A DNA stretch of 64,000 bases, from the NCBI GenBank assembly GCA_910575105.1, contig CAJTDK010000012.1, positions 1 to 64,000 of the forward strand, read 5' to 3'. Shown piece by piece: positions 1,751-19,013 of the stretch. Made by a program: the position numbers and the translations under genes. Source of the stretch: Lachnospiraceae bacterium. Lineage in GTDB: Bacteria > Bacillota > Clostridia > Lachnospirales > Lachnospiraceae. Below the pieces are notes generated by a model, which saw only the letters and a list, made by a program, of their open reading frames with translations, had not been told where the DNA came from and ran no database searches. How positions within the stretch are numbered: position 1 is the stretch's first letter; the number at the start of each line of letters is the position of its first letter.

Positions 1751-1790
1751 TTTTCCGTCTTTTTCCATCCTACAATAAACTCCCGTTATC

Positions 1791-2570: not shown

Positions 2571-2610
2571 CATTACCTCCTGTCCGAAATGCCCCGACCA
2601 AGCAATGCCC

Positions 2611-2619
2611 ATTATACCA
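2611..2619 (-). promoter_or_regulatory. Extended -10 promoter for the IMPase-DeoR unit
   Basis: The minus strand reads TGGTATAAT, a perfect -10 hexamer with an extended TG. There is no good -35 at 17 bases. Transcription would begin about 34 bases before the IMPase start codon, and it makes this pair independently transcribable from the sugar operon. Confidence 0.6.
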
Positions 2620-2651
2620 TTTATTTCCATAAAATACCAGTATAACCCAAA

Positions 2652-2688
2652 GCCCGGACTCTCTCTAAAGACAGTATAGAGTCCGGGC
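2652..2688 (-). terminator. Hairpin terminator after the sugar operon
   Basis: A perfect 11-bp stem (GCCCGGACTCT with AGAGTCCGGGC) lies 14 bases downstream of the aldolase stop codon. It is followed on the minus strand by TTTGGGTT, a short imperfect U-tract, so it may be leaky. It separates the kinase-aldolase operon from the IMPase gene. Confidence 0.75.
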
Positions 2689-2701
2689 AGTCCGTCTTTA
2701 T

Positions 2702-3355: not shown

Positions 3356-3360
3356 AGTAC

Positions 3361-4890: not shown

Positions 4891-4906
4891 ATTAAACCCT
4901 CACATT

Positions 4907-5776: not shown

Positions 5777-5789
5777 CGTTCCTTCCTCC

Positions 5790-6746
5790 TTATGCTTTAC
5801 TATTTCTTCTTCTGATTGCGTCGATTGAAACAGCAATAAGTACAACAATACCTGTCACAATCTGATCCCAATAAGAAGAGATTCCCAAAAGACTGATACT
5901 AAATGATATAACGCTCATCAGCAGACCGCCGATGATCGTTCCGCCGATCCCGCCGATTCCGCCGTTCATCGAGGTGCCGCCAAGTACGGCTGCGGTAATG
6001 GACGGCATCGCCCAGTTCTCACCGATATTTACCTGTGAAGAGGCAAGTCTTAACACCATAAGCACGCCTGCGAGCGAAGAGATAAATCCGGTAAGCGCAT
6101 AGACGCCCATCTTCGTCTTACTGCTCTGGATACCGACGATCCTTGCCGCGCTTTCATTTCCTCCTACTGCGTAAATATGACGTCCGAAGGAGGTATACCT
6201 GAGCATATACATAAGAACTACCGCAAGCACCAGCATGATCACCGCCGGATACGGAACAACCCCGAATAGCGAACCCTGACCGATCACCGTTACAGACGCC
6301 GGGATTCCCGTAAGCGGAATACCCTTTGTGGCAACATAAATGATTCCTTTATAAAGCGCGCTTGTCGCAAGGGTGACGATAAACGGAGTAAGATTCAAGG
6401 AACAGATAAAGATTCCGTTAATCGCTCCCAATACAGCCCCTGCCGCCAGTGCGATCACAATGGCTAAAAAGGGATTTACCCCTCCCACTGTCGTAAGCAT
6501 AGCAAAGATCATACTGCAAAGCCCTGCGATACTGGCAACCGACAGATCAATGCCGCCAAGCAGAAGCACCAGCGTCTGCGCGAAGCCGATGATAATCGTA
6601 AACGACGCGGAACGGATAAATGTAGAGAGATTGTATGCCGTATAGAAATGTCCCGTCAGTATCTGAACGACGATCGTCATCAGAATCGTCACGATAAATA
6701 CGGCGCCCGCCGTTGTCTTAATTGAATTTAACAGTTTATTTTTCAT
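5790..6746 (-). CDS. Sugar ABC transporter permease (RbsC-like)
   Basis: 318 aa with about eight to ten hydrophobic segments and the conserved BPD-transp-2 region ending in GGTSMNGGIGGIGGT, typical of the RbsC/AraH/XylH family. It forms the membrane channel for the ATPase at 6768 and the binding protein at 8340. It lies 21 bases downstream of the ATPase and just upstream of the epimerase, in one operon. Pentose, hexose or deoxyhexose import is the family norm. Confidence 0.92.
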   Translation of the reverse strand: MKNKLLNSIKTTAGAVFIVTILMTIVVQILTGHFYTAYNLSTFIRSASFTIIIGFAQTLVLLLGGIDLSVASIAGLCSMIFAMLTTVGGVNPFLAIVIALAAGAVLGAINGIFICSLNLTPFIVTLATSALYKGIIYVATKGIPLTGIPASVTVIGQGSLFGVVPYPAVIMLVLAVVLMYMLRYTSFGRHIYAVGGNESAARIVGIQSSKTKMGVYALTGFISSLAGVLMVLRLASSQVNIGENWAMPSITAAVLGGTSMNGGIGGIGGTIIGGLLMSVISFSISLLGISSYWDQIVTGIVVLIAVSIDAIRRRNSKA

Positions 6747-6767
6747 ATCGTATCTACCCCATCCTTT

Positions 6768-8252
6768 CTAGTTCAGCGCAACCTTCAGCAGATCTTCCCT
6801 GGCCATATCCTCATCCGGCATAAGAACTCCTTTCAGGCTTCCCGCATTCATGATCATAATTCTGTCCGCAATCGTAAGCAGCTCATCCATCTCTGAAGAT
6901 ATCACGATAATCGTAATCCCCATATCCGCCATCTCACGGACAAGCTTATAGATCTCTCCTTTTGCGCGGACATCGATTCCCCTTGTAGGCTCGTCTAAAA
7001 TAAGAAGCTTTACATTCTTTTCCATCCACCTTCCAAGGATTACCTTCTGTTGATTTCCGCCGCTTAAATTTTTAATGAGCGTATCCGCGCCCGGCGTCTT
7101 AATACGGAGCGCTTCGATATGATGATCCGCAATTTCTTTTGCTTTGGAGAAATTAATCTTCCCTTTGCTTTTTACCTTGTCATAGTTCAGCATCATGATA
7201 TTTTCACAGATAGAAAGCACCGGAAACATTCCCTGTTTTCTTCGTTCCTCCGGAACAAGACCGATTCCATGGGCGATCGCCTCCGCGGGAGAATGGATCG
7301 TAATCTCTGTCCCGTTAAAAAAAAGCTGCCCCGAATCCTTCTGGGTAAGTCCGTATATGCAGGAGAAAAGCTCCGTCCTGCCTGCTCCTACAAGGCCCGC
7401 TACGCCATAGATCTCTCCTTTTTTTACTTCAAAATTAATATCTTTAAATTCCCGTCCTCTTGAAAAATTCTTTACTTCAAGAAAAATCTCATCGGAAACC
7501 TTTCTTTCTACTCTCTGGTTTTTCTCAACCTTCTGGTTCGCCATATGATAAATCATTTCATCTATCGAAATATCCTTCGTATCACATGCCTTTACAAATT
7601 TTCCATCCCTCATGATCGTCACGCGGTCTGAAATTTCCTGCACCTCATCCAGATGATGGGTAATGATGATAATCGCTTTTCCTTCTTCCTTAAGCTTTCT
7701 TACATTCCGGAATAAATGCTCTGTCTCATTTAATGTAAGAGAAGCGGTCGGTTCATCGAGAATAATAATATTGGAACCAAATACAAGTGTTCTTGCGATC
7801 GAAACAAGCTGCTGATATGCTGCGCTTACTTCCGAAACCTTAATTCCCGGATCAATATCCACCTCCAGCTTTTCCATCATTTCCTTCGCTTTCACCGTAG
7901 TCTGTCTCCAGTCCATCCGTCTTCCTTTTTTCTGGTGAAGGCCAAGGAATATATTTTCCGCAATGGACAGCTCCGGAACCAGATTTAACTCCTGGGGCAC
8001 CATACCGATTTTCTTTTGCAGCGCCTCGTAGGGCGATTTATTTTCAATCTTTTCCCCATTCAAGATAATCTCCCCGGAGTCCGGCTGCAAAATCCCCATC
8101 AGTACGTTCATCAAAGTGCTTTTTCCGGCGCCATTCTCACCAATCAGAGCCATCACTTCTCCAGCTTTGAGATTAAAGTCTACATGATCAAGCGCAAGTG
8201 TTCCTGGAAACTGCTTGACGATCTGATTCATGCTTAATAGATACTCTGTCAT
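6768..8252 (-). CDS. Sugar ABC transporter ATP-binding protein (RbsA-like)
   Basis: 494 aa with two ABC domains in tandem, as in RbsA, XylG and MglA. The first has Walker A GENGAGKST and Walker B IIILDEPTA. The second has LSGGNQQK and LLILDEPTRGID but the usual divergent Walker A (GLVGAGRTE). The start at 8252 is preceded by AGGAGGAA; an upstream in-frame start would lie within the intergenic hairpin region. It energises sugar import with the permease downstream and the binding protein upstream. Confidence 0.93.
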   Translation of the reverse strand: MTEYLLSMNQIVKQFPGTLALDHVDFNLKAGEVMALIGENGAGKSTLMNVLMGILQPDSGEIILNGEKIENKSPYEALQKKIGMVPQELNLVPELSIAENIFLGLHQKKGRRMDWRQTTVKAKEMMEKLEVDIDPGIKVSEVSAAYQQLVSIARTLVFGSNIIILDEPTASLTLNETEHLFRNVRKLKEEGKAIIIITHHLDEVQEISDRVTIMRDGKFVKACDTKDISIDEMIYHMANQKVEKNQRVERKVSDEIFLEVKNFSRGREFKDINFEVKKGEIYGVAGLVGAGRTELFSCIYGLTQKDSGQLFFNGTEITIHSPAEAIAHGIGLVPEERRKQGMFPVLSICENIMMLNYDKVKSKGKINFSKAKEIADHHIEALRIKTPGADTLIKNLSGGNQQKVILGRWMEKNVKLLILDEPTRGIDVRAKGEIYKLVREMADMGITIIVISSEMDELLTIADRIMIMNAGSLKGVLMPDEDMAREDLLKVALN

Positions 8253-8274
8253 GAACTTCCTCCTTTTTTTGAAA

Positions 8275-8296
8275 TTCCCCGCCAAATGGCGGGGAA
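8275..8296 (-). other. Intercistronic hairpin between binding-protein and ATPase genes
   Basis: A perfect 9-bp stem (TTCCCCGCC with GGCGGGGAA, loop of four) lies between the binding-protein gene and the ATPase ribosome site. It has no proper U-tract on the minus strand. By analogy with other binding-protein operons it may protect the upstream mRNA or cause partial termination, giving more binding protein than transporter. Confidence 0.65.
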
Positions 8297-8339
8297 CTGG
8301 TCACGGCATTATAATCATTTTCTTTTAAAATTTACCTTT

Positions 8340-9428
8340 TTAATATAATTTATCAAGATATTCCTGGGCATTCTCCGGATATACGATCACTGTCTGCTCT
8401 TCTGTCTGCTCCGGATACGTATCCTCTCCGACCTCTTTTCCGTCAGCGATCATAATCGCAACCTGAATGGTGTCGAATCCCATCTTAAAGCAGTCCTGAA
8501 CGCCAAGCGCCTGAATAACTCCGTCTCTTAAATACTCAAGAGCACGTTTGTCATGGTCCATTCCAACTAATACGATATCGCCCTCTTTACCTGCGTCAAC
8601 AACTGCCTGTGCCGCTCCGATCGGATTGCTCATGTTGTTGCAGAAAATTCCCTTAAGGTCAGGATATTTCTGAAGGAAGCCTTCGGTAAAAGTCAGAGAA
8701 TTCTCTACAGAATCATTGTCATTCTGGATCTCTACTACTTCTATATCCGGATATTTTTTCATTACATCCTTAAAGCCTGCGATACGATCCTCATGACATG
8801 GCGCGCCGATCGTTCCTGCAAGCGCTGCTACCTGTCCTTTGTATTCAATCTTCTCCGCAAGAATCTCCGCAAGGTCTGCCCCGTCCTGATAATTGTGCGT
8901 ATTGCCTACATACGCGATACGCTTGCAGCCATCCTCTTTTGTGGCGTCAGAGCTTGAGAATGTCATAATCTTATGACCCTGGTCGATCAGGTTGTTAATG
9001 GTCGGTGTTACGATCTCAATATCATTTACATCTACGCCGATTACATCAAAGTCACGTCCTGCTGCTTCTTCAAGTCTGTTTACCTGATCGATAGCATCAG
9101 GCGCCGGCGGAGCAACATACTCATAGTTAATCGTGATACCCTTGTCCGCATACTGCTTCTGCGCTTCTTCAAGTCCCAGACCAACTGCGTCCCACCATGC
9201 GTGAACCAGCTTATAGGTAAAATAGAAATTGTATTCCTTCTTTTCCGGTGCATAATCGCCTAACACCAGTTCAGAACCGTTCTCTTCCTTCAGCTCAATG
9301 GCTCCTTCCGTACTCTCCTTCTTCTCTTCCTTCTCACCTTCACCGGAACCCCCGGAGCTTGCGCAGCCTACTGCAAGGCCTGCAATCATTGCCGCACATA
9401 ATAACACGCTAATGAATTTCCTCTTCAT
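8340..9428 (-). CDS. Sugar ABC transporter substrate-binding lipoprotein
   Basis: 362 aa, with a lipoprotein signal peptide ending in the lipobox LAVGCASS and then an acidic, low-complexity linker of about 25 residues. The rest is a periplasmic-binding-protein type 1 fold of the RbsB/Peripla_BP_4 kind (segments VIGVDVND, AYVGNTHNYQDG, GIFCNNMSNPIGAA). It is anchored outside the membrane and delivers the sugar to the RbsAC-like transporter encoded downstream. A GGAGGG ribosome site and a strong promoter precede it, so it is the first gene of the operon. The ligand cannot be read from sequence. Confidence 0.92.
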   Translation of the reverse strand: MKRKFISVLLCAAMIAGLAVGCASSGGSGEGEKEEKKESTEGAIELKEENGSELVLGDYAPEKKEYNFYFTYKLVHAWWDAVGLGLEEAQKQYADKGITINYEYVAPPAPDAIDQVNRLEEAAGRDFDVIGVDVNDIEIVTPTINNLIDQGHKIMTFSSSDATKEDGCKRIAYVGNTHNYQDGADLAEILAEKIEYKGQVAALAGTIGAPCHEDRIAGFKDVMKKYPDIEVVEIQNDNDSVENSLTFTEGFLQKYPDLKGIFCNNMSNPIGAAQAVVDAGKEGDIVLVGMDHDKRALEYLRDGVIQALGVQDCFKMGFDTIQVAIMIADGKEVGEDTYPEQTEEQTVIVYPENAQEYLDKLY

Positions 9429-9475
9429 CTTTTTACCCTCCTTACTCTTTTGTTTTCAAACGCTGCCGTTACGTT

Positions 9476-9499
9476 CGAAACAAAACATTTTTGTTTTCG
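9476..9499. promoter_or_regulatory. Operator-like inverted repeat in the sugar operon leader
   Basis: CGAAACAAAAC facing GTTTTCG around a T-rich centre, just downstream of the predicted transcription start. The CGAAA/TTTCG words match the type of site bound by DeoR-family repressors. Confidence 0.5.
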
Positions 9500-9513
9500 T
9501 GTTTTGTAGTTTT

Positions 9514-9542
9514 ATTTTAACTTTTATTGTTTTGATTGTCAA
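9514..9542 (-). promoter_or_regulatory. Promoter of the sugar ABC-epimerase-kinase-aldolase operon
   Basis: On the minus strand TTGACA (9537-9542) and TAAAAT (9514-9519) are separated by exactly 17 bases. It is nearly identical to the promoter of the microcompartment operon at 15266-15294. Confidence 0.8.
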
Positions 9543-9549
9543 TATATTA

Positions 9550-9592
9550 TTTCGTTGTTTCAAAATTATTATTTCGTTTATGTTTCGTTTTA
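9550..9592. promoter_or_regulatory. TTTCG operator-like repeats upstream of the promoter
   Basis: Two adjacent direct repeats, TTTCGTTTATG and TTTCGTTTTA, at 9572-9592, and a third copy TTTCGTTGTTTC at 9550-9561. They flank the -35 element on its upstream side. TTTCG direct repeats are the classic operator word of DeoR-family regulators; two such regulators are encoded at 229 and 977. Confidence 0.55.
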
Positions 9593-9610
9593 ATCTTCAG
9601 AAAATACAGA

Positions 9611-9678
9611 CAGGGTGATCAAACCCAGGAACGAAAGTTTTCCTTAAAGACTCCGTTCCCGGTTGTTCGATCACCCTG
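9611..9678 (-). terminator. Long hairpin terminator after the microcompartment operon
   Basis: CAGGGTGATCAAACC and a GGAACG block pair with CGTTCC and a GGTTGTTCGATCACCCTG block. The stem exceeds 20 bp with small bulges. It lies 10 bases beyond the alcohol dehydrogenase stop and is followed by TCTGTATTTTCTG on the minus strand. It separates the two catabolic operons. Confidence 0.75.
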
Positions 9679-9688
9679 TTTCCAGTCG

Positions 9689-10855
9689 TTATTCCTTACA
9701 TTCGTAAGCTCTTTGATATACTTCGATAACCTGACGCTTTGCCGGCATAAAATAGTTATCCGCCATGCACGCGTCCTTCATCGCCATATCCGCCATAGCC
9801 TCAAAATCCGGCTTCTCCAAAGCAAGCTCTTTAAGGCTTTTCGGCAGGGACAGTCTGCGCGACAGTTTTCTTATATGCTCTGTGCACATATAGACTACCT
9901 CTTCATCCTTCACATCTTCTTCGAAGGAAATTCCCAGCGCATGCGCCACCTTCCTAAACCGTCCCGAAACCCCGGAAAAGCCCCCGGAAAATTCCATAAC
10001 ATAAGGCAGAAGCACCGCATTGCATACTCCATGGGGCAGATTCATCATCCCTCCCAGCGCATGCGCCATCGCATGGACCATGCCAAGACCCGCGTTTGAA
10101 AATGCCATTCCGGCCGTGTACTCTGCATAAGCCATCATTTCCCTTGCCTCTACGTCAGATCCGTTTTCAAATGCCCGCGGAAGATAGTCCTTAATAACCA
10201 TGACCGCCCACAATGCATCCTTATCTGTGATCGGAACTGCCTTTTTGGAAAGAACAGCTTCGATAGCATGGGTCATGGCATCCATCCCGGTAGCCGCAGT
10301 GAGCTTAGGCGGCATGGTCATCATAAAATCTACATCATTTACCGCAATACTTACCATGCAGTTTGGGTCTACCATACACATCTTTGAGCGGCGTCTGGGA
10401 TCTGTAACAATATAAAAGGCTGTAACCTCAGATCCGGTGCCTGCGGTTGTGTTTACCGCAACAATAGGGATCCCCTTCCTTCCGGACCGGTTCACGCCCT
10501 CATAGTCCTCCACTTTCCCGCCGTTTTCCAGCACTATGCTGACTGCTTTCGCTGTATCTATGGCCGATCCGCCCCCGACTGCCACGAGAAAATCTACCTG
10601 CAGTGTCCTCGCCGCATCCAGGCATTCATTTACGATTTCAACCGTCGGGTTTGGCTGCACAAGATAATAGATGGCATATTCGGCGCCGGCCTCCAAAAGC
10701 CGTTCTCCAACCTTATCCGCCGCGCCGCTCTTGTATAGGAAGCCATCTGTAATGACCAGACCTCTTTTCACGCCTCTTTTTCTTAATTCCTGCGGCAGAA
10801 GGGAAATAGATCCTCTGCCAAAAAAGCTGACTCCTACCGCATTACTTCTTTCCAC
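9689..10855 (-). CDS. Iron-containing alcohol dehydrogenase, lactaldehyde reductase (FucO)-like
   Basis: 388 aa group III alcohol dehydrogenase. NAD site GGGSAIDTAK; iron ligands in GMDAMTHAIE, MVHAMAHALGG and NLPHGVCNA. It resembles E. coli FucO along its length (FFGRGS start, QPNPT, AGMAFSNAGLGMVH), so reduction of a 2-hydroxyaldehyde to a diol (lactaldehyde to 1,2-propanediol, or glycolaldehyde to ethylene glycol) is likely. In the compartment operon such an enzyme regenerates NAD for the aldehyde dehydrogenase. I see no terminal encapsulation helix, so whether it is lumenal or cytosolic is open. Confidence 0.88.
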   Translation of the reverse strand: MERSNAVGVSFFGRGSISLLPQELRKRGVKRGLVITDGFLYKSGAADKVGERLLEAGAEYAIYYLVQPNPTVEIVNECLDAARTLQVDFLVAVGGGSAIDTAKAVSIVLENGGKVEDYEGVNRSGRKGIPIVAVNTTAGTGSEVTAFYIVTDPRRRSKMCMVDPNCMVSIAVNDVDFMMTMPPKLTAATGMDAMTHAIEAVLSKKAVPITDKDALWAVMVIKDYLPRAFENGSDVEAREMMAYAEYTAGMAFSNAGLGMVHAMAHALGGMMNLPHGVCNAVLLPYVMEFSGGFSGVSGRFRKVAHALGISFEEDVKDEEVVYMCTEHIRKLSRRLSLPKSLKELALEKPDFEAMADMAMKDACMADNYFMPAKRQVIEVYQRAYECKE

Positions 10856-10888
10856 TTTTCCTTCACCTCACTTTAACTCATCCTGCAT

Positions 10889-11149
10889 TTACCTGCCTAT
10901 CTGGGGAGGTGAATCTACAATTCCCACAATATATGCATCAACCGGCGCCGCCCGGTCCAGAGCATGCTGTGTCGTCTCATCTGTAGTAATAAGCACCAGT
11001 TCTCCGATCCCGGCACCGATAGAATCTGCCGCTACGATTATCTCTTTTTTATTTCCATAAAACGGCTCCACAAGTAAAAGCTTAAAGCCTACCAGATTAC
11101 TGCATTTCCGTGTAGAAACTACAGTTCCCTTTACCGTCCCTAAAATCAT
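10889..11149 (-). CDS. BMC vertex protein, EutN/CcmL family
   Basis: 86 aa from the ATG at 11149, which overlaps the PduL stop by four bases (ATGA). It is a single Pfam EutN/CcmL domain: MILGTVKGTVVST at the start, then LLVEP and AADSIGAGIGELVLI, ending in GIVDS. These proteins form pentamers that cap the icosahedral vertices of microcompartments. It is the only vertex gene in the operon. Confidence 0.93.
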   Translation of the reverse strand: MILGTVKGTVVSTRKCSNLVGFKLLLVEPFYGNKKEIIVAADSIGAGIGELVLITTDETTQHALDRAAPVDAYIVGIVDSPPQIGR

Positions 11150-11802
11150 ATGGTTCCTTCCTTTCTCACACTTACCCACTGACCCTGGGAAAGCAAAAAC
11201 GCGTTGGCATCGTCAGTATCTACATGAAAATCCAGTCTTGCGCTTTCACTTACTCTTATCACCACGTTATTCATCACTCCGCCTTTCGGACCTTTGATAC
11301 AGACCTTTACCCTCTCCTTGTCTGAAACCCCGAACCATCTGGCGTCTTCCGGTGTCATATGGATATGACGGTCAGCAATGATAACCCCGTTCTTAAGTAT
11401 CGCCTCACCCCCCGGTCCTCTGATAATAAGTCCCGGTGTTCCTGCCACATCGCCGGAGGTTCTTACCGGAGGCGAGAGGCCGAGTCTCCGGCTGTCTCCG
11501 GCCGATAGCTCTACCTGAGTATCTTTCCTTTCAGGCCCAAGGATTCTCACCTTTTCAAGTTTTCCCTTTGGCCCGATCAGGGTCACCTGCTCCACACACG
11601 CAAACTGATTTTTCTGACTCAGATTTTTGAGAGGCGTCAGCTCATATCCTTTGCCAAACAAAAGCTCCACATGTTCTCTTGTGAGATGGACATGCCTCGC
11701 CGAGATACCGACCGGAACCTGAAGGGGATCTTCGCTCAGCCTTTTTAAATTGTCTACGACCCGGGCCGTTATTATTTCAATCAGTTCCTCTCTGTCCACC
11801 AT
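11146..11802 (-). CDS. PduL-type phosphate acyltransferase (microcompartment)
   Basis: 218 aa. Residues 1-20 (MVDREELIEIITARVVDNLK) form an amphipathic helix of the encapsulation-peptide type, as in known compartment PduL enzymes. The two PduL beta-barrel domains follow, with zinc-binding histidines in SARHVHLT, ADRHIHM and DFHVDTDDANA. The enzyme converts acyl-CoA and phosphate to acyl-phosphate, recycling CoA inside the compartment for the aldehyde dehydrogenase at 12791. The acyl-phosphate would yield ATP through an acyl kinase not present in this window. Confidence 0.93.
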   Translation of the reverse strand: MVDREELIEIITARVVDNLKRLSEDPLQVPVGISARHVHLTREHVELLFGKGYELTPLKNLSQKNQFACVEQVTLIGPKGKLEKVRILGPERKDTQVELSAGDSRRLGLSPPVRTSGDVAGTPGLIIRGPGGEAILKNGVIIADRHIHMTPEDARWFGVSDKERVKVCIKGPKGGVMNNVVIRVSESARLDFHVDTDDANAFLLSQGQWVSVRKEGTI

Positions 11803-11834
11803 CTTAAGCTCCTTATCTGTCTCTTATCTGTCTC

Positions 11835-12137
11835 TTATTTGATATAGGGAAGGATCTCTCCAACAGAGCTGTGAGGCCTTGGGATTACATGTGCCGCCAC
11901 AAGCTCGCCGATTCTCGATGCCGCCTCCTGACCTGCTTCTGTAGCTGCCTTTACCGCGCCTACGTCTCCTTGTACCATAACCGTTACTAATCCGGAACCG
12001 ATCTTTTCTGTTCCTACAAGCTCTACATCCGCTGATTTTAACATTGCATCAGCCGCCTCGATTGATGCCGTAAGGCCTCTCGTTTCAATCATCCCTAACG
12101 CAAGCATACCTCTCTTTGTTCCTGTTGTTTCTGCCAT
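11835..12137 (-). CDS. BMC-H hexameric shell protein
   Basis: 100 aa with one BMC domain ([19 protein letters not shown], then [17 protein letters not shown]). The KIGSG pore loop is of the PduA/CcmK type that lines a polar central pore. It builds the hexagonal facets. It is the only BMC-H gene here, so either one hexamer tiles the whole facet with the BMC-T, or other shell genes lie elsewhere in the genome. Confidence 0.95.
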
Positions 12138-12160
12138 GTTCCTGTTCCTCCTTGTGATCT

Positions 12161-12772
12161 TTATTTATTCATATTTAATATTTTTTTAATTTCCGGATGC
12201 GGATTGCAGATGACAACCGCAGTTTTTATGTTCTCTGCGCCGATAAGCCGCCCGGCTTCCTTTACCGCCTCTACGGCCGCCTGTACCTCGGATGTCATTC
12301 CCGCCAGCACGGTATGGCACATTTTTCCGCCAAGCTTTTTATGACAGCTTACAATTCTCACATCCGCCGTTTTTAATGCCTGGTCAACCGCTACTACTGT
12401 ATTGGAAAAATAGCTGATTTCCAAAACGCCTACAGCAGTCAGATTTTTCTTATCTTTTGTTTTCCTTAGCTCTGTTTTTGTTATCTGTGATAATCTTTTT
12501 GTTCCTTCAAAGGGACGTTCAATGATCTCCGTCAGCACATCCTCAGGTCCGGCAAGGTCCAATGCCGCCCTTCTTGCATATTCGCACGCCTCCTTCACAT
12601 CATCCGTCCCGCCTTCAAATTTTGCCTGTGCCGTGAGCGGGATGAAGGCGCCTGCGTCTTTGGGGTTAATGGTGTCTATGCCGATGATCCTTACTTCCGC
12701 TGCCTTACACGCCTTATCCATGGCATACAGCACCGTCCCATAGCCGGCACACTCCAAAAAACCTATTGCCAC
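12161..12772 (-). CDS. BMC-T tandem-domain shell protein
   Basis: 203 aa with two BMC domains (about residues 3-90 and 110-195; [16 protein letters not shown] and [16 protein letters not shown] open them). Such proteins trimerise into pseudohexamers. The second-domain loop [11 protein letters not shown] has two cysteines and two histidines near the expected pore position, which could allow metal or Fe-S binding as in PduT, but this is inference. It sits directly between the aldehyde dehydrogenase and BMC-H genes. Confidence 0.93.
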
Positions 12773-12790
12773 TTAAACCTTCCACCTCTC

Positions 12791-14209
12791 TTATATGATC
12801 CTGAGTCCGCCCTCCGAAAGCATACATCTTCGTCTTCTTGTAAAGCTTCTTGCACAGGTAAGTCCTTCACCTGTGGGTCCGGCGATGGTCATCGTCGTGT
12901 GGCCTTCACCTCCGATTCCTATCCCTCTTAGGGTCGCGCCGTTTTTTGTATAGATGGTAGTCTCGATCTCTTTTCCAAATACCGTCATATGATCTACATT
13001 TTTTGAAAAAATGGAAGATGTATGCCGGTTTCCGCCTTCTGCCGAAACCGCAAGACTTACGCACTCTTCAAAAGTACGGCACTTTACAATGGGAAGTACC
13101 GGCATAAGCTGTTCTACCTGGACAAACGGATGTCCGGGTTCTGTCTCACAGATCAAAAGCCGTGTGTCTTTATGACCATGAATCCCGATTTCCTCAAGAA
13201 AAAGCGCCGCATCTTTTCCGACCCATTTCTTGTTCACCTGATATCTTCCGTCCTTGTTTATCATCGCAAACGCGGTGACCGCTTCCAGCTGTCCCGAATC
13301 AAGCAGATAAGCGCCTTCCTTCTGCAGCGCGTCTATCAGCCGGCCAGCCGCAGATTCCATAACAAATATTTCTTTTTCCGCCAGACACAAAAGATTATTA
13401 TCAAAAGAAGCGCCTCTGTAGATTTCCTTTGCCGCATATGCGATATCTGCCGTATCGTCCACAACTACCGGTGGATTCCCCGCGCCGGCTCCTATGGTCT
13501 TCTTGCCGGAACGAAGGAGGGCGTTTACCATTCCCATGCCGCCTGTTCCTGCCATCAGACGGATTCTCGGACTTGCCGTGATCTGATTTACTGATTCCAT
13601 CGAAGGCTCCCTCTGCATCGTAATGAGATTTGCCGGGCCGCCATTTTCTACAATGGTTTTATGTAATAACCTGAGACAATAGGCGCAGCACTTTTTTGCG
13701 CCGGGATGTACATTAAACACGACCGCATTTCCGCCCGCGATCATGCTGATCGTATTATTGATGATTGTTTCTGTCGGGTTTGTTGACGGAGTGACAGCGC
13801 CGATTACGCCAAAGGGAGCGCATTCCTCGATCATTAAGCCCTCGTCTCCTGAAACAGCATCTGTCGTAAGGCATTCTACTCCAGGCGTTTTTCGGATAAC
13901 CGCCAGATGCTTCTGTACCTTATCCTCATAACGGCCCATACCAGTTTCTTCCCGCACCATCTTTGCCAGATCTTCTGCGTGCTCCTCCGACACTGCGCGG
14001 ATCGCCGCGATAATGCGTTTTCTGTCTTCAAGATTATAGTCCTTCACCCATTTGCGCTGTGCCTGATATGACGCTTCTATAGCTTCTTCCACACATTCAA
14101 ACACACCGTCCTCCCCGCCGCAGGCCTTCGGGGAGCTTAAGGACTTTACGTCTATATTTTCCAACACTTGCTGTACAATAAGTTCGATTTCCTTTGCACC
14201 TATGTTCAT
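12791..14209 (-). CDS. CoA-acylating aldehyde dehydrogenase (EutE/PduP-like)
   Basis: 472 aa. Residues 1-22 (GAKEIELIVQQVLENID) make an amphipathic encapsulation helix followed by a Gly/Ser-rich linker. The dehydrogenase domain has the NAD-site PSTNPTETIINNT, GNAVVFNVHP, and the catalytic cysteine in NNLLCLAEKE. It oxidises a lumenal aldehyde with NAD and CoA to acyl-CoA. Its start overlaps the aldolase stop by four bases, linking supply and consumption of the aldehyde. The acyl product could be lactoyl-CoA or glycolyl-CoA if the aldolase releases lactaldehyde or glycolaldehyde. It is the signature enzyme of the compartment. Confidence 0.92.
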   Translation of the reverse strand: MNIGAKEIELIVQQVLENIDVKSLSSPKACGGEDGVFECVEEAIEASYQAQRKWVKDYNLEDRKRIIAAIRAVSEEHAEDLAKMVREETGMGRYEDKVQKHLAVIRKTPGVECLTTDAVSGDEGLMIEECAPFGVIGAVTPSTNPTETIINNTISMIAGGNAVVFNVHPGAKKCCAYCLRLLHKTIVENGGPANLITMQREPSMESVNQITASPRIRLMAGTGGMGMVNALLRSGKKTIGAGAGNPPVVVDDTADIAYAAKEIYRGASFDNNLLCLAEKEIFVMESAAGRLIDALQKEGAYLLDSGQLEAVTAFAMINKDGRYQVNKKWVGKDAALFLEEIGIHGHKDTRLLICETEPGHPFVQVEQLMPVLPIVKCRTFEECVSLAVSAEGGNRHTSSIFSKNVDHMTVFGKEIETTIYTKNGATLRGIGIGGEGHTTMTIAGPTGEGLTCARSFTRRRRCMLSEGGLRII

Positions 14210-15195
14210 ACTGTTCCTCCTGCTTTCAGTTCTTCCATTACCCTGCGCGCCACCTCTGCAATAATCTCTTCCTTCGCCCTGCCGCCTGTCCCGGCGTTAG
14301 CGTGCGCTCCGGCACCGGCGCCATCCCGGACAGGAATCTGATCTCCGGGTCTTACAAGGGATGTTACACCTTTTGGCATACAGGGTGTCTGCCTTTTGTC
14401 AGGAGACATATTTCCTTCAGAATCCGACAGCCGTCTTTCAGGAATGCTGCCGGCCCTTAAAAGCTCTACCGTTTCGAGGGGTCTGATATCGTCTGATGTC
14501 ACGATATCCCTGTCATTAGTCTCGCAGGCTGCGCAGGGCGGAATCCCCCCGCTTGTGATGCCAAGCTTTTTCCGGATATCCAGAAGCTTGTTTACCTGGC
14601 TGCAGGACAGGACATTCTGTCTGCCGATGATATTTCCCGTATACATAAGGATCGTGGCGTAATATTCAACAGACTCCAGCCTGTAAAATGCCTGGTAAAT
14701 GTCGCTTCCCCAGGTAAGCGCTCCGTGATTCGCAAGCAGCACACCGTTATGGGTATTTACGAAGGGAGCTATGGAATCCGGCACCTCCTGGGTTCCCGGA
14801 GTGGCGTATTTTGCAATAGGAATAGAGCCAAGTCCCATGACCGCCTCTGTAAGAATCGCGCTGTCCAGGCTGATGCCTGCAATCGCAAAGCTTGTCGCCA
14901 CCGGCGGATGTGCATGGACCGCCGCCTTAAGTCCCGGATTTTCCTCGTATACCCGAAGATGCATCTTCACCTCTGATGAGGGCTTCATCCTTCCCATTAA
15001 AACCTTCCCGTCCAGATCCATCTTCACAAGCATATCTTGGGTCATAAATCCCTTCGATACGCCTGTGGGCGTTGTCCAGATCGTGCGCGGACCGGTCTTA
15101 CAGCTTATGTTTCCGTCATTTGCAGCTACAAATCCTTTGTCATACATCCGCTTTCCTATATCAAGTATCGCCTTTTTTGCCTCAAAATCTGTCAT
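14206..15195 (-). CDS. Microcompartment class II aldolase with C-terminal encapsulation helix
   Basis: 329 aa from the ATG at 15195, about 110 residues longer than ordinary fuculose-phosphate aldolases. The aldolase domain fills roughly the first 215 residues, with zinc histidines in VHAHPPVATSF and ANHGALTWG. A linker with a Cys pair, then a Gly/Ala-rich stretch (DGAGAGAHANAG), leads to a terminal amphipathic helix (KEEIIAEVARRVMEELK) of encapsulation-peptide type. It should cleave a ketose-1-phosphate to DHAP plus an aldehyde at or in the compartment. An in-frame GTG at 15222 with a perfect AGGAGGTG is an alternative start; the ATG has AAGGAG 8 bases upstream. Confidence 0.88.
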   Translation of the reverse strand: MTDFEAKKAILDIGKRMYDKGFVAANDGNISCKTGPRTIWTTPTGVSKGFMTQDMLVKMDLDGKVLMGRMKPSSEVKMHLRVYEENPGLKAAVHAHPPVATSFAIAGISLDSAILTEAVMGLGSIPIAKYATPGTQEVPDSIAPFVNTHNGVLLANHGALTWGSDIYQAFYRLESVEYYATILMYTGNIIGRQNVLSCSQVNKLLDIRKKLGITSGGIPPCAACETNDRDIVTSDDIRPLETVELLRAGSIPERRLSDSEGNMSPDKRQTPCMPKGVTSLVRPGDQIPVRDGAGAGAHANAGTGGRAKEEIIAEVARRVMEELKAGGTV

Positions 15196-15251
15196 ATATT
15201 TCTCTCCTTGAAGCGTAACCACGTACTTTCACCTCCTTTTATTGTATCATT

Positions 15252-15332
15252 TTTGTTTATACATTATTTTATTTGTTTTATATTGTTTTGTCAATATTTT
15301 ATGTTGTTTTATTTTTATTTATTTTGTTTTAT
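15252..15332. promoter_or_regulatory. Phased TTGTTTTAT operator-like repeats at the BMC promoter
   Basis: TTGTTTTAT occurs at 15273-15281, 15304-15312 and 15324-15332, with a related TTTGTTTAT near 15253. Start-to-start spacings of 31 and 20 bases are close to three and two helical turns, so the copies face the same side. They cover the -35/-10 and the upstream region of the microcompartment promoter, as expected for a repressor site. Confidence 0.5.
15266..15294 (-). promoter_or_regulatory. Promoter of the microcompartment operon
   Basis: Minus-strand TTGACA (15289-15294), a 17-base spacer and TAAAAT (15266-15271). The predicted start lies about 35-65 bases before either aldolase start codon. 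Both boxes and the spacer length equal those of the sugar operon promoter at 9514-9542. Confidence 0.8.
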
Positions 15333-15400
15333 ATTTTTCATGATTGCCTGCATCAGCCTTTACCGCCTGAGATTGAACAGAAAAATTCCGTTTATCAAAA

Positions 15401-15432
15401 TAAAAAAGAGCTGCCCGTCAAATGAGCAACTC
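15401..15432 (-). terminator. Rho-independent terminator after the nucleoside hydrolase
   Basis: On the minus strand GAGTTGC and GCAGCTC pair (one G-U) around an 11-base loop and run straight into TTTTTTATTTTG. It begins 9 bases after the nucleoside hydrolase stop codon. Confidence 0.85.
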
Positions 15433-15440
15433 ATAAAAAA

Positions 15441-16325
15441 TCATTCGCCTTCCGCCAGAATATGTACCTTCATCCAGGTGTCATAAATATTCCTTTTAAA
15501 CGCTCTCTCATCCCCGATCTCCGGGAGATTACACTGCCACGGTCCGTCGGCTGCCTTCCTCAGATATCCGGTGCGCAGATCCTCCTCAGAAAAAGAAAAT
15601 CTTCCCTTGCAGTCTGTAAATAATTCAGGATGCATCAAATACACCGCCGCCGTCACATCCCAGTTATAGAATCCCTTGATCCCATAATCCTCTTCATTAT
15701 AGCCGAACCAGTAATCCGTGCGCTCCCGGATATATCTGGCAATGGCCTCCTTCCTTGTAAACAGCTCCCTTTTGTACTCCTCTTTTGTGAACAGCACCTT
15801 AAGGCAGTTATTTCCTGTAATTACCGATACATTTTTCCCGTACTTCAACACATTGCAGGAAGCGTGCGGGTCGCAGGAAAAATTAAGCTCATCCATGACT
15901 TTCTTTTCAAATACCAGCGGCTCTGTGATCCCGCCCATCAGCACGATTTCCTTTATCTTTTCAAAAAACCGGCTGTCCTTTTCATACGCGCCCTGCAGGT
16001 TCGTCAGAGAACCGGTAGCCAAGACAGACAGCTCACCCAGATATCTGTCTGCCATCTTTACAAGATAATCTGCTGCTTCGCTGTCATAATCCGCTGCTTC
16101 GCTCCCGCCGCGTTTGACGGTTATATCCTCTCTTCCCAGATCCTTTAGCATGCCGCAGGTCGTGTCGTAGACTACCTCCAGCCGGTTATTTCCATATGTC
16201 GTCGTAATTCCGTGAAGATTCGCCTCTTTTTCACATCCCAGCAGATATAACAGAGCAAGCCCGTCATCTACGTCACAATTCTTCACCCCGAAAGTATTAT
16301 CACAATCAAATACGATCTGTTTCAT
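15441..16325 (-). CDS. Inosine/uridine-preferring nucleoside hydrolase family protein
   Basis: 294 aa. The family cleaves N-ribosides to base and ribose using a calcium-binding Asp cluster. Here the cluster is FDCDNTFGVKNCDVDDG, longer than the usual DxDxGxDD by an insertion, with the second-site ATGSLTNL and a late NWDVTAAVY that supplies the last metal Asp. The core looks intact but atypical at the N-terminus. It is the last gene of an operon with a YnjB-like ABC transporter 21 bases upstream, suggesting that the imported solute, or something made from it, is a riboside. A 21-bp tandem duplication lies inside it. Confidence 0.85.
   Translation of the reverse strand: MKQIVFDCDNTFGVKNCDVDDGLALLYLLGCEKEANLHGITTTYGNNRLEVVYDTTCGMLKDLGREDITVKRGGSEAADYDSEAADYLVKMADRYLGELSVLATGSLTNLQGAYEKDSRFFEKIKEIVLMGGITEPLVFEKKVMDELNFSCDPHASCNVLKYGKNVSVITGNNCLKVLFTKEEYKRELFTRKEAIARYIRERTDYWFGYNEEDYGIKGFYNWDVTAAVYLMHPELFTDCKGRFSFSEEDLRTGYLRKAADGPWQCNLPEIGDERAFKRNIYDTWMKVHILAEGE
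16065..16106. repeat. 21-bp tandem duplication inside the nucleoside hydrolase gene
   Basis: Two adjacent 21-bp units with three differences (ATAATCTGCTGCTTCGCTGTC-type) encode SEAADYD followed by SEAADYL. The repeat is in frame, so it lengthens a surface loop by seven residues rather than breaking the gene. Confidence 0.85.
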
Positions 16326-16345
16326 CTTTATCCACTCTCCTCTCT

Positions 16346-17314
16346 CTATTCCTCAGTCTTTGCCATTCCGACACAGACATTTCTGAGGATCTCTATCCCT
16401 ACGCGGTCTCCGACCGACATGTCCATAGCTTCTAACTCGCTGCTCATCAGCATACAGAATACCTCGCCCTTTGGCGTATCAACCCGAATTTCCGCCGTCT
16501 CACCCATGAACACGATATCCTTCACCATACCGTCATTCCCCGACGGGACGATCCGGATATCAAAGGGACGCACCCCGATTTCCTGTCCCTTTTCCCGGAT
16601 ATAATTCATCCTTCCGAAATACTCCGCCACCTCTCTGTTCACTGGATACTTAAAGATCCGCTGAGGCGTATCGTACTGGAGCATCCGCCCGCCGCTCATC
16701 AGCGCAATACGGTCGGAAAACTTCAGCGCTTCCTGCTTATCATGTGTCACCAGCACTGTCGTCAGTCCATTTTCAAGGTGAAGCTTTCTCACCAGTTCAC
16801 CCATCTCCGCCCTCAGTCTCTCATCCAGACCCGAGAAAGGCTCGTCCAAAAGCAAAAGCCTTGGATTTGCCGCAAGAGCCCTGGCGAGGGCAACCCGCTG
16901 CATCTGTCCTCCAGACATTTCCCGGATCTTCCGGTTTTCATATCCGGTAAGCTGAACCTGCCCGAGAAGGCGCTCCACCGTCTCCTTCTGCCGTTCTTTA
17001 GGAATCCCCTGAATACTCATGGGAAATGCGATATTCTTTCCGGCCGTCATATGGGGAAATAGACGCAGGTCCTGGAACACGATCACCGTCCCCCGCTTTT
17101 CCGGCAAAACACCGTTCATTTCCCTTCCGTCAATCTGGATTTTTCCCGTCCTTGCTTCCAAAAGCCCGGCAATGCTTTTCAGAAGAGTGCTCTTCCCGCA
17201 GCCCGAAGCTCCCAGAAGCGAAACAAATTCCCCATCCGCTATATCCAGACTGATCTCATGGAGAACCTCCGTCTTTCCAAAGGCCACATTTAACTGTTCA
17301 ATTCTTAAGCTCAT
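16346..17314 (-). CDS. ABC transporter ATP-binding protein (PotA/FbpC type)
   Basis: 322 aa from the ATG at 17314, which has GGAG upstream and starts 9 bases after the permease stop. The ABC domain has GASGCGKSTLL, the signature MSGGQMQR and LLLLDEPFSGLD, and the C-terminus (about residues 235-322) is a TOBE-like domain. It powers the two permeases and YnjB-like binding protein encoded upstream. Iron, polyamine or thiamine-type importers share this architecture. Confidence 0.9.
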   Translation of the reverse strand: MSLRIEQLNVAFGKTEVLHEISLDIADGEFVSLLGASGCGKSTLLKSIAGLLEARTGKIQIDGREMNGVLPEKRGTVIVFQDLRLFPHMTAGKNIAFPMSIQGIPKERQKETVERLLGQVQLTGYENRKIREMSGGQMQRVALARALAANPRLLLLDEPFSGLDERLRAEMGELVRKLHLENGLTTVLVTHDKQEALKFSDRIALMSGGRMLQYDTPQRIFKYPVNREVAEYFGRMNYIREKGQEIGVRPFDIRIVPSGNDGMVKDIVFMGETAEIRVDTPKGEVFCMLMSSELEAMDMSVGDRVGIEILRNVCVGMAKTEE

Positions 17315-17322
17315 CTCTGCTC

Positions 17323-18147
17323 CTATGTATAAAATTCTGTATCGGTATTTTTCCCCCATCTGCCGGCTATCTTTTCAAACAGGGCAAATACGGCCAAAGT
17401 GATCCCAAGGAAGATCACACTGTAGGCGCAGGCAATATTCCTGTCCCCGCCCTGCAGATAAGGCACCATGACAATGGTAAAGGTCTTCACCTGCCCGCCG
17501 CCGATCAGCAGCGTCAGGAAATACTGGCTGAAGGAGACGATATAAGCCATGCTGAAGGATGACAGGATGACAGGGACAAGGAGCGGAAACGTCACCCGGA
17601 AGAACGCCTGCCCCATCGATGCCCCCAGGACCCGCGCCTGCTCCTCAAGCCTGTCTCCCACCGCCGCGGTCCCATCCATCATCAGCCGCACCGCATAAGG
17701 GAGGGAACAGATCAGATGGGAGAGCACCACACCTGCCACCGTATTATTCAGCCCAAGCTTAATAAAGGAAATCTGGACACCCATGGCAAACACTGTCGCA
17801 GGAACCATAAAAGGAAGTACGGTAAAAAAATACATCATTCTCTTCCCCCAGAATTCGTACAGCACCAGCGCTCTTGCCGTCAGCGTTCCGATCACCACAG
17901 ACGCCATGGCGACTGCGGCAGAGATCATGATGCTGGAGGCAAACAGCTTCGCAAGCGCCTCGCTGCGCCGGAATATTTCGCTGAGCGCCCTCAAGGAAAG
18001 TACCTGAGGAACCAGATCCGGCCACGCCCACCGTTCTGTCACTGTCCAGACAATCATCACCGCAATCGGCAGGACGACGGTCAATACAAACAATGCCAGG
18101 ATCATATTTGTGATCGCAAATCTTTTTTTCTTCATTGCATACCTCAT
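17323..18147 (-). CDS. ABC transporter permease (binding-protein-dependent)
   Basis: 274 aa with six predicted membrane segments and the EAA-loop region EEQARVLGASMGQAFFRV, which contacts the ATPase. It overlaps the preceding permease stop by four bases (ATGA). It is the second inner-membrane subunit of the YnjBCD-like importer; E. coli YnjC carries both halves in one chain. Confidence 0.9.
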   Translation of the reverse strand: MRYAMKKKRFAITNMILALFVLTVVLPIAVMIVWTVTERWAWPDLVPQVLSLRALSEIFRRSEALAKLFASSIMISAAVAMASVVIGTLTARALVLYEFWGKRMMYFFTVLPFMVPATVFAMGVQISFIKLGLNNTVAGVVLSHLICSLPYAVRLMMDGTAAVGDRLEEQARVLGASMGQAFFRVTFPLLVPVILSSFSMAYIVSFSQYFLTLLIGGGQVKTFTIVMVPYLQGGDRNIACAYSVIFLGITLAVFALFEKIAGRWGKNTDTEFYT

Positions 18148-19013
18148 TTATTACCGGCCAGCTTTTTCTGGCTCCTTCTCATCAGGGCAAGATAAACGCA
18201 CGCACTAAGCAGCGATATAGCCATGATCAGGCCGTTCAGCGCCATCGCATAGGGCCTGTTCCTAAGATCCGGGTGCGTATACTGGATATAGGCCTGCACA
18301 GGCAACGCCTTAGGCGTCGTCGCCCCCAGAATAAAAGGAAGCTCATAGGCGCCAAGCGCGAACACAAAAATAATCAAAAAGCCGCTGTATATGGTATTCG
18401 CACACAGAGGAAGCGTCACCCGGAAAAAAGCCTGCACCTTGCCGGCCCCAAGATTTACCGCCGCTTCTCCCAGTTTCCCGTCAATATTCGCCATCAGCGC
18501 GATGACAAAGTAGACGATAAACGGTATCTCCTTCCACAGATAGGCCAGAATAATCCCAAACCCTCCTGCATCGTAGATCAGCGCAGGAAACTCCTGTTGT
18601 TCCCCGATAAGCCCGAAAGCATAAATTACTCTTGCAAGAAGCCCGTTCTGCGAACAGATATTGATAACAAAAAGAGCCACAACAACATGGGGGACGACAA
18701 TAGGAAGCTGAACGATCCTCATCATTCTCCCCTTTGTCCTGCGGCTCATTACAAGCACTGCGCATAGCAAAACTCCCGCCGCCGTAGAAAACAGCGCCGA
18801 GAAAAATGCAATCCTGAGACTATATAAAACCGACCTTACCATATCCGGCTTTGTCAGTATCTCTTTATAATAAAACAATGTCGGCTCCGTCAGTCCAAAA
18901 GCCGGAATCACCCCAAGACTCTGGGCGATTCCGGTAATCAATCCAATCAGGAAGAAAATGGTCAATATAATCTGAGGAACCAGCAGTATATACGGTGTCA
19001 GCTTTTTACGCAT
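18144..19013 (-). CDS. ABC transporter permease (binding-protein-dependent)
   Basis: 289 aa with six membrane segments. The EAA loop reads GEAAVNLGAGKVQAFFRVTL. It starts at a TAATG junction overlapping the binding-protein stop by one base, so expression is coupled. It pairs with the permease at 17323. Confidence 0.9.
   Translation of the reverse strand: MRKKLTPYILLVPQIILTIFFLIGLITGIAQSLGVIPAFGLTEPTLFYYKEILTKPDMVRSVLYSLRIAFFSALFSTAAGVLLCAVLVMSRRTKGRMMRIVQLPIVVPHVVVALFVINICSQNGLLARVIYAFGLIGEQQEFPALIYDAGGFGIILAYLWKEIPFIVYFVIALMANIDGKLGEAAVNLGAGKVQAFFRVTLPLCANTIYSGFLIIFVFALGAYELPFILGATTPKALPVQAYIQYTHPDLRNRPYAMALNGLIMAISLLSACVYLALMRRSQKKLAGNK

Follow-up and report, generated by a model that had tools for sequence, protein, structure and literature searches.

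Gene Content of the Compartment Locus

The window analysed here is a stretch of 64,000 nucleotides from a Lachnospiraceae bacterium (contig CAJTDK010000012.1 of assembly GCA_910575105.1), and its subject is an operon for a bacterial microcompartment (BMC), together with the sugar operon that follows it. Seven minus-strand genes with short or overlapping junctions encode, in the order of transcription, a class II aldolase, a CoA-acylating aldehyde dehydrogenase (AldDH), a BMC-T and a BMC-H shell protein, the phosphotransacylase PduL, the EutN-type vertex protein (BMC-P) and a FucO-like reductase. The Pfam and NCBIfam assignments, the junctions and the strand bear out the families and the order given in a preliminary description of this stretch, and the same gene calls uphold its view that a Firmicute here encodes a complete aldolase metabolosome whose locus lacks a diol dehydratase. 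The metabolosome genes for aldolase, AldDH, PduL and alcohol dehydrogenase stand in one locus with BMC-H and BMC-P.

The first gene of the operon, Ald1 (14206–15222), matches Aldolase_II with 165.7 bits, and by alignment and tree it belongs to a group of aldolases linked to genes for methylthioribose kinase (MtnK) and the corresponding isomerase (MtnA), enzymes of the dihydroxyacetone phosphate (DHAP) shunt by which 5-deoxyribose and methylthioribose are salvaged. Its start is probably the GTG at 15222 rather than the ATG at 15195, since the GTG is preceded by a ribosome-binding site and the additional N-terminal residues recur in most of the aligned relatives. AldDH (12791–14209) belongs to the PRK15398 subfamily (643 bits against a cut-off of 403). 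The BMC-T protein (12161–12772; 203 amino acids) has two BMC domains, and the BMC-H protein (11835–12137; 100 amino acids), identified by genome search, Pfam and locus comparison, has one. PduL (11146–11802) matches PTAC with 252 bits, and EutN (10889–11149, likely start ATG at 11149) matches EutN_CcmL with 85 bits, so the locus has one BMC-P, one BMC-H and one BMC-T. The last gene, FucO (9689–10855), encodes an iron alcohol dehydrogenase whose top NCBIfam model, lactaldehyde reductase, is reached below its cut-off (401 against 523 bits); it is 50–68% identical to the FucO of those relatives that have one, and is proposed to regenerate NAD+.

By inspection, short amphipathic helices of the shell-targeting kind are present at the N-termini of PduL and AldDH and at the C-terminus of Ald1, and these three proteins may be targeted to the shell through them. 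The C-terminal helix is nearly identical at the tail ends of the aldolases of the window and of Lacrimispora. Among 104 loci, the median length of the aldolase tail past the conserved core is 62 residues in BMC loci (n = 49) against 17 in BMC-free loci (n = 55), and long tails of up to 95 residues are also found in some BMC-free loci.

The predicted promoter and operator region of the BMC operon (15223–15435, minus strand) contains TTGACA-17-TAAAAT, four AAAACAA repeats and no AACGAAA. The promoter-like site at 15294–15266 agrees with 11 of 12 consensus bases and is located downstream of the terminator-like hairpin of the upstream operon (15408–15432).

The Neighbouring Sugar Operon and the Shared Unit

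A second operon on the same strand follows the BMC operon, which encodes a binding protein, an ATPase, a permease, a ketose 3-epimerase, an FGGY kinase, a second aldolase (Ald2), a phosphatase and a DeoR-type regulator (DeoR2). The sugar-binding lipoprotein (8340–9428, minus strand, as are the following genes; Pfam) has as its closest solved chain CbpD of Clostridium thermocellum, with a monosaccharide-sized pocket and no known ligand. The sugar ATP-binding cassette (ABC) transporter is completed by an ATPase with two ABC domains (6768–8285) and a permease (5790–6746), both assigned by Pfam. The epimerase (4907–5779) belongs to the D-tagatose/D-psicose 3-epimerase family (NCBIfam PsicseEpim, 269 bits against a cut-off of 300), its closest solved chains being D-tagatose 3-epimerases. 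The FGGY kinase (3361–4890; Pfam and NCBIfam) is XylB-like below the cut-off, has relatives of 54–69% identity in BMC-free stretches, and is a proposed ketose 1-kinase; matches at E 1e-100 occur in six of the 397 genomes of the family, the window's own included. Ald2 (2702–3394; Pfam, alignment) is without the C-terminal extension. The phosphatase (1791–2630; Pfam Inositol_P, 207 bits) is of the inositol-monophosphatase family and falls under the cut-off of all NCBIfam models listed. DeoR2 (977–1768; Pfam) ends the operon, with a 45% relative next to a BMC-free kinase/aldolase operon in locus L138. Beyond it, on the plus strand, lies DeoR1 (229–984; Pfam DeoRC and HTH_DeoR), which is 62–70% identical to its nearest relatives and orthologous to the DeoR gene that divergently adjoins the aldolase in MtnK/MtnA-linked BMC loci. 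An attempt to name the sugar from the binding protein, the kinase or the epimerase gave no identification from any of the three.

The predicted promoter of this operon (9430–9600, minus strand) again has TTGACA-17-TAAAAT, with three AACGAAA and three AAAACAA elements, so that AAAACAA repeats are present in both promoters. A single common operator for the two operons was not accepted as established, since the BMC promoter has AAAACAA only, the sugar promoter has both elements, the regions are AT-rich, and AAAACAA is absent from some relatives' promoters. Between FucO and the binding protein lies a long terminator-like hairpin (9600–9690, minus strand; −42.3 kcal/mol, z −5.85), which exceeds the usual length of a terminator.

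The preliminary description had confined the system to the seven genes, but its extent is larger. The alignment of the window with a sister species (genome G393) is a single stretch of 15,148 bp at 94.96% identity, covering window positions 211–15338 (the 15.1-kb unit), which holds the second operon and both DeoR genes. Beyond this stretch nothing was alignable within the 24 kb and 30 kb compared, and the neighbourhood of the unit in G393 differs from that in the window; the other fetched flanks are unrelated. The ratio of nonsynonymous to synonymous divergence (dN/dS) between the two ranges from 0 to 0.21 over all 16 unit genes, the maximum being that of the aldolase. The unit genes are thus kept by purifying selection, and the observation itself is not due to chance.

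Synonymous divergence from the sister is uneven, with about 0.5 in both DeoR genes, 0.21 in the phosphatase and 0.08–0.28 in the rest (229–2630 against 2702–15195), so the unit may have a mosaic history. To the left of DeoR1 in the sister (L137:1-237) there is a fragment resembling a transposase (HTH_Tnp_1, 23.9 bits against a cut-off of 24.1), and the window contig starts at about the same place, which suggests that a mobile element may border the unit.

A search of six members of the genus found this aldolase in two (the window's genome and G393), only a 50–52% relative in three, and none at E 1e-30 in one. The sugar operon also occurs in BMC-free stretches, most fully in L140 (binding protein 64%, epimerase 71%, kinase 65% and Ald2 60% identical) and partially in L138 and L141.

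The Aldolase and Its MtnK/MtnA-Linked Relatives

It has been reported that a kinase, an isomerase and a class II aldolase of Bacillus thuringiensis convert 5-deoxyribose into DHAP and acetaldehyde (Beaudoin and colleagues, PMC6079011), and that E. coli has a DHAP-shunt route for methylthioadenosine and 5′-deoxyadenosine (PMC12632272; PMC10986504). On the strength of this work, the pair mtnK/mtnA is taken here as a marker of the DHAP shunt.

Relatives of the BMC-T protein (E 1e-10 or better) were found in 49 of 392 genomes of the order. Among 11 stretches around the best of them, ten (L035–L044) have this family's aldolase, AldDH and BMC genes, to which PduL, EutN and FucO are added in most cases, and the eleventh (L045) is a B12-diol-dehydratase locus. 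Both mtnK and mtnA are present in eight of the ten; L041 (6.8 kb) has mtnA only, and L040, which is cut at a contig start, has neither. In L035 the kinase and the isomerase exceed the curated cut-offs for S-methyl-5-thioribose kinase (412 against 275) and S-methyl-5-thioribose-1-phosphate isomerase (406 against 279), respectively.

The same association was seen when named genomes were scanned for the aldolase by its alignment and the best 80 loci were retained: 71 of the stretches include MtnA and 40 include MtnK, all 40 of the latter together with MtnA, and nine include neither. BMC genes lie near the aldolase in 29 of these 80, and 25 of the 29 have both MtnK and MtnA. As for the other four, three (L050, L056, L069) start where their contigs start, and L064 is bounded by the 10-kb flank; on follow-up, MtnA was found just past the fetched end for L064 and L069, on contigs that equal theirs in length, and on another contig for L056. 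MtnA had no match in the genomes of L050, of L040 (G080) or of the sister G393. Some records stand under two labels (L037 = L051, L042 = L052, L175 = L086), and the rows are therefore not all independent.

A tree was built of 103 aldolases and Ald2 (L177 left out; the rows of the tree include no PVM and no Clostridium phytofermentans sequence, PVM being the Planctomycetes/Verrucomicrobia microcompartment). In it, Ald1 of the window and of G393 fall within a nine-row clade (support 100/95) with seven Lacrimispora-type BMC loci, six of which have MtnK and MtnA, while L050 is cut at a contig start. A separate clade (100/100) contains the aldolases of three BMC loci with glycyl-radical enzymes (L179–L181), of the B12-dehydratase locus L045 and of the BMC-free rhamnulokinase operon L182. 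The large enzymes of L179–L181 are pyruvate formate-lyase (PFL)-like with a glycine-radical domain, and these loci served as stand-ins for the GRM5 type of C. phytofermentans; in L182 the kinase is a rhamnulokinase, and the neighbour of 537 amino acids is not a fucose isomerase. Ald1 thus belongs to the mtnK/mtnA-linked group and does not group with the aldolases of glycyl-radical BMC loci. Within the family, aldolase matches at E 1e-50 were found in 131 of 397 genomes, with identities from 78% down to 41%, mostly about 41–53%.

The closest known systems are the Lacrimispora-type loci with mtnK/mtnA (L035, L036, L046, L048, L049), which share with the window an orthologous aldolase (69–78% identity), AldDH, BMC-H, PduL, EutN, FucO and DeoR1, with the same core order. 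They also have MtnK, MtnA, an ABC transporter of their own, four shell genes with one domain each, a CoA-transferase pair, a CoA-disulfide reductase and DhaK. All of these are missing from the window unit, which has a single BMC-T chain and, as its front end, a ketose epimerase with an FGGY kinase. The suggestion that the set is a reduced one is therefore sound when relatives are the measure, as it has fewer shell and accessory genes.

At columns conserved in the relatives (12 to 25 other loci, chosen from BMC loci), the window differs at only 1 of 100 in Ald1, 4 of 152 in AldDH (25 loci), 1 of 45 in PduL, 1 of 62 in DeoR1 (16 loci) and 5 of 118 in FucO, one of these at the alignment end. Since the conserved columns are nearly unchanged, the substrate of Ald1 and the ligand of the regulator are argued to be still near the ancestral ones.

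Genome-Wide Searches of the Host

The host genome is 99.96% complete. A profile search with PF00936 returned only BMC-T and BMC-H of the locus (EutN was not searched genome-wide), and the idea of hidden BMC-domain genes elsewhere was dropped accordingly. The only PFL-like enzyme of the genome is the trans-4-hydroxyproline dehydratase HypD on another contig (1479 bits against a cut-off of 1100), so that a diol-dehydrating glycyl-radical enzyme elsewhere was likewise rejected. The B12 diol dehydratase large subunit (PF02286) has no match in the operon, nor in the genome by a search in which the controls were also silent.

No match to the IF-2B/MtnA family was found in the host genome, in a search where controls gave a signal in 9 of 14 cases. 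MtnK also had no match; no control gave a signal in that search, although the same query protein does find relatives in other loci. A separate rhamnulokinase (534 bits, cut-off 528) and a rhamnulose-1-phosphate aldolase, RhaD (315 bits, cut-off 170), are on contig C14, and two fucose-isomerase-family matches above cut-off are found elsewhere in the genome.

Shell Proteins and the Tn/Tc Fusion

In a survey of 31 loci (some being the same records), the usual order of the shell genes is Tn, H, Tc, H, as separate single-domain genes, with one or more extra H genes in several Bacillus and Paenibacillus loci. By locus comparison, tree and predicted structure, BMC-T of the window is Tn and Tc in one chain, a state found in five loci: the window, G393, L039, L069 and L038. 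In L038 (85–981), from the same order of bacteria, the chain has 298 amino acids and three BMC domains, Tn-Tc-H.

The predicted structure of BMC-T (predicted local distance difference test 79, from four sequences) consists of two BMC folds, neither of them permuted, and its matches include PduT, HO BMC-T and designed tandem fusions; among solved chains, the nearest in sequence is an engineered tandem fusion of BMC-H. With two unpermuted PF00936 domains in one chain, by Pfam and by predicted structure, the protein falls under the definition of BMC-Ts.

A tree of 28 of the 31 loci (5 fused and 23 split; L056, L058 and L092 were omitted because their third shell gene is nearer to BMC-H than to Tc) requires at least three changes between the fused and split states. 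The simplest reading of this tree would be three separate fusions; one gain and two losses are possible, as the tree has no direction and the fused row L069 is on a long branch. That these two genes have been joined repeatedly, and always in one order, points to Tn and Tc as partners within a single tile. CcmK proteins are known to form mixed hexamers (PMC6788708).

Proposed Role of the Unit and Alternative Explanations

Both Ald1 and Ald2 retain a glutamate and three histidines in the alignment, which we take to correspond to the catalytic base and the metal ligands of FucA. AraD-type epimerases have an aspartate at that glutamate position, and Ald2 is therefore read as an aldolase. Class II aldolases of this kind act on ketose-1-phosphates, so the FGGY kinase is proposed to phosphorylate C1 of a free ketose after epimerisation at C3, which would make MtnK and MtnA dispensable.

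The reading that we somewhat favour is a DHAP-shunt-type metabolosome re-plumbed to a ketose-1-phosphate by a swapped sugar-activation module, with the aldehyde dismuted to acyl-phosphate and alcohol. Judged by gene neighbours, the ancestral job of the family would be that MtnK and MtnA convert methylthioribose or 5-deoxyribose into a ketose-1-phosphate, to be cleaved by the encapsulated aldolase, with DHAP and a small aldehyde as the products. In the host species the neighbouring operon would substitute for the apparently lost MtnK/MtnA front end: the ABC importer would take up the sugar, the 3-epimerase would adjust C3, and the FGGY kinase would phosphorylate C1 to a (3R,4R)-ketose-1-phosphate of the 5-deoxyribulose, ribulose or psicose type. 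These three candidates have the right C3/C4 configuration and would yield acetaldehyde, glycolaldehyde or glyceraldehyde, respectively. Ald1, held in an assembled shell through its C-terminal helix, would cleave the ketose-1-phosphate, with DHAP leaving to glycolysis. Part of the aldehyde would be converted by AldDH into acyl-CoA and then by PduL into acyl-phosphate (ATP), while FucO would turn an equal part into the alcohol, so that the NAD and CoA cycles are closed. As for Ald2, it may be the original, cytosolic aldolase of the imported operon. Aldehyde dismutation inside the shell by AldDH–PduL and FucO is the scheme proposed for PVM compartments (PMC6620236).

In favour of this reading are the clade of Ald1, the MtnK/MtnA neighbours of its relatives, the few differences at conserved columns, the missing MtnA match, the unit in common with G393, its low dN/dS values, the AAAACAA repeats of both promoters and the longer aldolase tails of BMC loci. 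Several observations weigh against this reading. The sugar operon with its own Ald2 occurs in the BMC-free stretches L140, L138 and L141, so the compartment is not required by the operon. In addition, the sugar operon comes with a regulator of its own and with AACGAAA elements that the BMC promoter does not have, a strong hairpin divides the two operons, and AAAACAA is absent from the promoters of 4 of 12 relatives (L055, L092, L054, L042). The two species sharing the unit, that of the window and G393, are closely related. The epimerase and the kinase are below the equivalog cut-offs and the nearest solved relative of the binding protein has no known ligand, so the sugar and its phosphorylation at C1 are not established by them. 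Finally, the genomes of L040 and L050 keep the core with no MtnA match, the core standing at a contig start in both.

There is a rival explanation, which we consider unlikely though the strongest of the three weighed here: the BMC core and the sugar operon would be adjacent by chance or recent joining, the operon being self-sufficient via Ald2, and the core being fed by another source of ketose-1-phosphate or on its way to being lost. The BMC-free occurrence of the operon, its separate promoter, hairpin and DeoR2, and the smaller number of shell and accessory genes than in relatives agree with it. It is opposed by the purifying selection on every core gene (dN/dS 0–0.21), by the common unit amid different flanks, by the AAAACAA elements in both promoters, and by the position of DeoR1: this gene, whose orthologs adjoin the BMC genes in the relatives, lies beyond the distal end of the sugar operon, which means that the unit encloses the sugar operon. 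A compartment of the PVM type, in which Ald1 would yield lactaldehyde from fucose or rhamnose for dismutation to lactyl-phosphate and 1,2-propanediol, appears improbable. The combination of class II aldolase, AldDH, PduL and lactaldehyde-reductase-like FucO, the fucose-isomerase-family matches elsewhere and the promiscuity of class II aldolases would suit it, but no fucose or rhamnose isomerase was recognised within the unit by Pfam or NCBIfam, and the adjacent epimerase is of the ketose 3-epimerase family. The fucose/rhamnose assignment, which the preliminary description had implied, was set aside on account of the aldolase clade, outside which the dehydratase-BMC and rhamnulokinase loci form a 100/100 clade of their own, and of the separate rhamnulokinase and RhaD pair on C14.

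It is just as improbable that the compartment still salvages 5-deoxyribose or methylthioribose through an unrecognised kinase and isomerase elsewhere in the genome. The near-unchanged conserved sites of the core enzymes and DeoR1 would be expected of such a route, and against it stand the missing IF-2B/MtnA family match in a nearly complete genome and the missing MtnK match, the latter from the search with silent controls.

A wider proposition, to which we give slightly less than even weight, extends the favoured reading to the family. Many PVM-like compartments of Firmicutes would be organelles for the salvage of S-adenosylmethionine (SAM) by-products through the DHAP shunt, confining acetaldehyde or methylthioacetaldehyde, and not organelles for fucose or rhamnose. 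In the window, the diet of such an organelle would then have been changed through replacement of the upstream module for sugar activation alone, a ketose epimerase and FGGY kinase taking the place of MtnK/MtnA, with enzymes and regulator nearly untouched, and the BMC-T fusion, with similar fusions in the family, would imply that Tn and Tc normally share a mixed hexamer. If so, a compartment type whose function has so far been a guess would have a definite class of substrates and would be tied to the disposal of radical-SAM and polyamine by-products in anaerobes, and the window would be a natural experiment in organelle re-plumbing with a minimal seven-gene metabolosome. In addition, an origin of BMC-T from mixed hexamers can be tested directly with the split and fused Tn/Tc genes.

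Relation to Described Compartments and Pathways

The preliminary description knew class II aldolase compartments only from Planctomycetes and GRM5, but PVM-like loci of Firmicutes had already been catalogued. Axen 2014 (PMC4207490) described such loci in diverse Firmicutes, one of them with an alcohol dehydrogenase, possibly as fragments of a GRM5-like locus, and its main text mentions neither thioribose nor PF01008. Sutter 2021 (PMC8217296) added about 50 PVM-like members. The 2021 microbiome survey (PMC8156839) named Hungatella and C. bolteae and took the PVM-like substrate as likely; the loci of these two fell outside our best 80 and outside the comparison. According to the same survey, a class II aldolase is also part of MIC compartments, and MIC4 is present in a strain of Lachnospiraceae that it names. 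Ravcheev 2019 (PMC6620236) argued for lactaldehyde dismutation and counted 13 genomes of Firmicutes with the Pvm BMC; ten of them have propanediol dehydratase and three do not, and six have it at the locus and seven do not.

By their published main-text descriptions, the family of the window is likely identical with these catalogued PVM-like loci (Axen 2014; Sutter 2021). Both occur in Firmicutes and have a class II aldolase and AldDH, most of the catalogued loci also having DeoR; they differ in that the function was published as probably similar to that of PVM (fucose/rhamnose), and in that only one locus had an alcohol dehydrogenase in 2014. With the PVM of Planctomycetes and Verrucomicrobia the window shares the signature class II aldolase (PF00596 in the window) and the logic of aldehyde dismutation. 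GRM5, as represented by its stand-ins, also has a class II aldolase with a C-terminal extension, AldDH and PduL, but its locus contains a glycyl-radical enzyme, which the window locus does not, and the aldolases are about 50% identical and of another clade.

The 5-deoxyribose disposal pathway (drdK-drdI-drdA), that is, the DHAP shunt, resembles the window family in the linkage of the aldolase family to MtnK- and MtnA-like enzymes. It differs in that no compartment is described for it in the available excerpts, and in that the window genome has no isomerase match, nor a kinase match in the search with silent controls. In the A. woodii study (PMC7593272), the adjoining methylthioribose kinase gene was called unrelated to BMC function. 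A search of the open-access literature, excluding supplements and most subscription papers, found no paper linking microcompartments with the DHAP shunt, methylthioribose, 5-deoxyribose or methionine salvage; further papers holding both terms (PMC11046441, PMC7895386, PMC10176493) are by title on other subjects. Within that literature, the functional reassignment of the family to the DHAP shunt looks unpublished.

Further Observations on Neighbouring and Related Loci

A second BMC arrangement with the same aldolase family was seen in L061, L065, L071, L079, L086, L175, L176 and L178, where the aldolase is followed by PduL and EutN, together with BMC genes, MtnK and MtnA, and with AldDH in six of the eight; L175 and L178 also have a PduS-like protein (Complex1_51K, RnfC_N). 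Compartments for the DHAP shunt may thus have arisen on more than one occasion. DeoR1 and Ald1 also have orthologs that stand BMC-free beside a galactitol-type phosphotransferase system (PTS) in L174 (660–10414) and, by inspection, in L183 (695–10678), L174 holding in addition RuBisCO-large-like, TIM and RpiB family genes. The PTS set is possibly another front end for the same aldolase.

The BMC operon of L036 (11879–15915) includes a solute-binding-like protein, a CoA-disulfide reductase and a CoA-transferase pair, which the window unit is without. Upstream of the BMC operon, a nucleoside hydrolase and a separate ABC transporter occupy window positions 15441–20281, outside the stretch shared with the sister. 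The nucleoside hydrolase (15441–16325) was rejected as a member of the operon, as a terminator-like hairpin and a promoter intervene and the gene is outside the stretch shared with G393.

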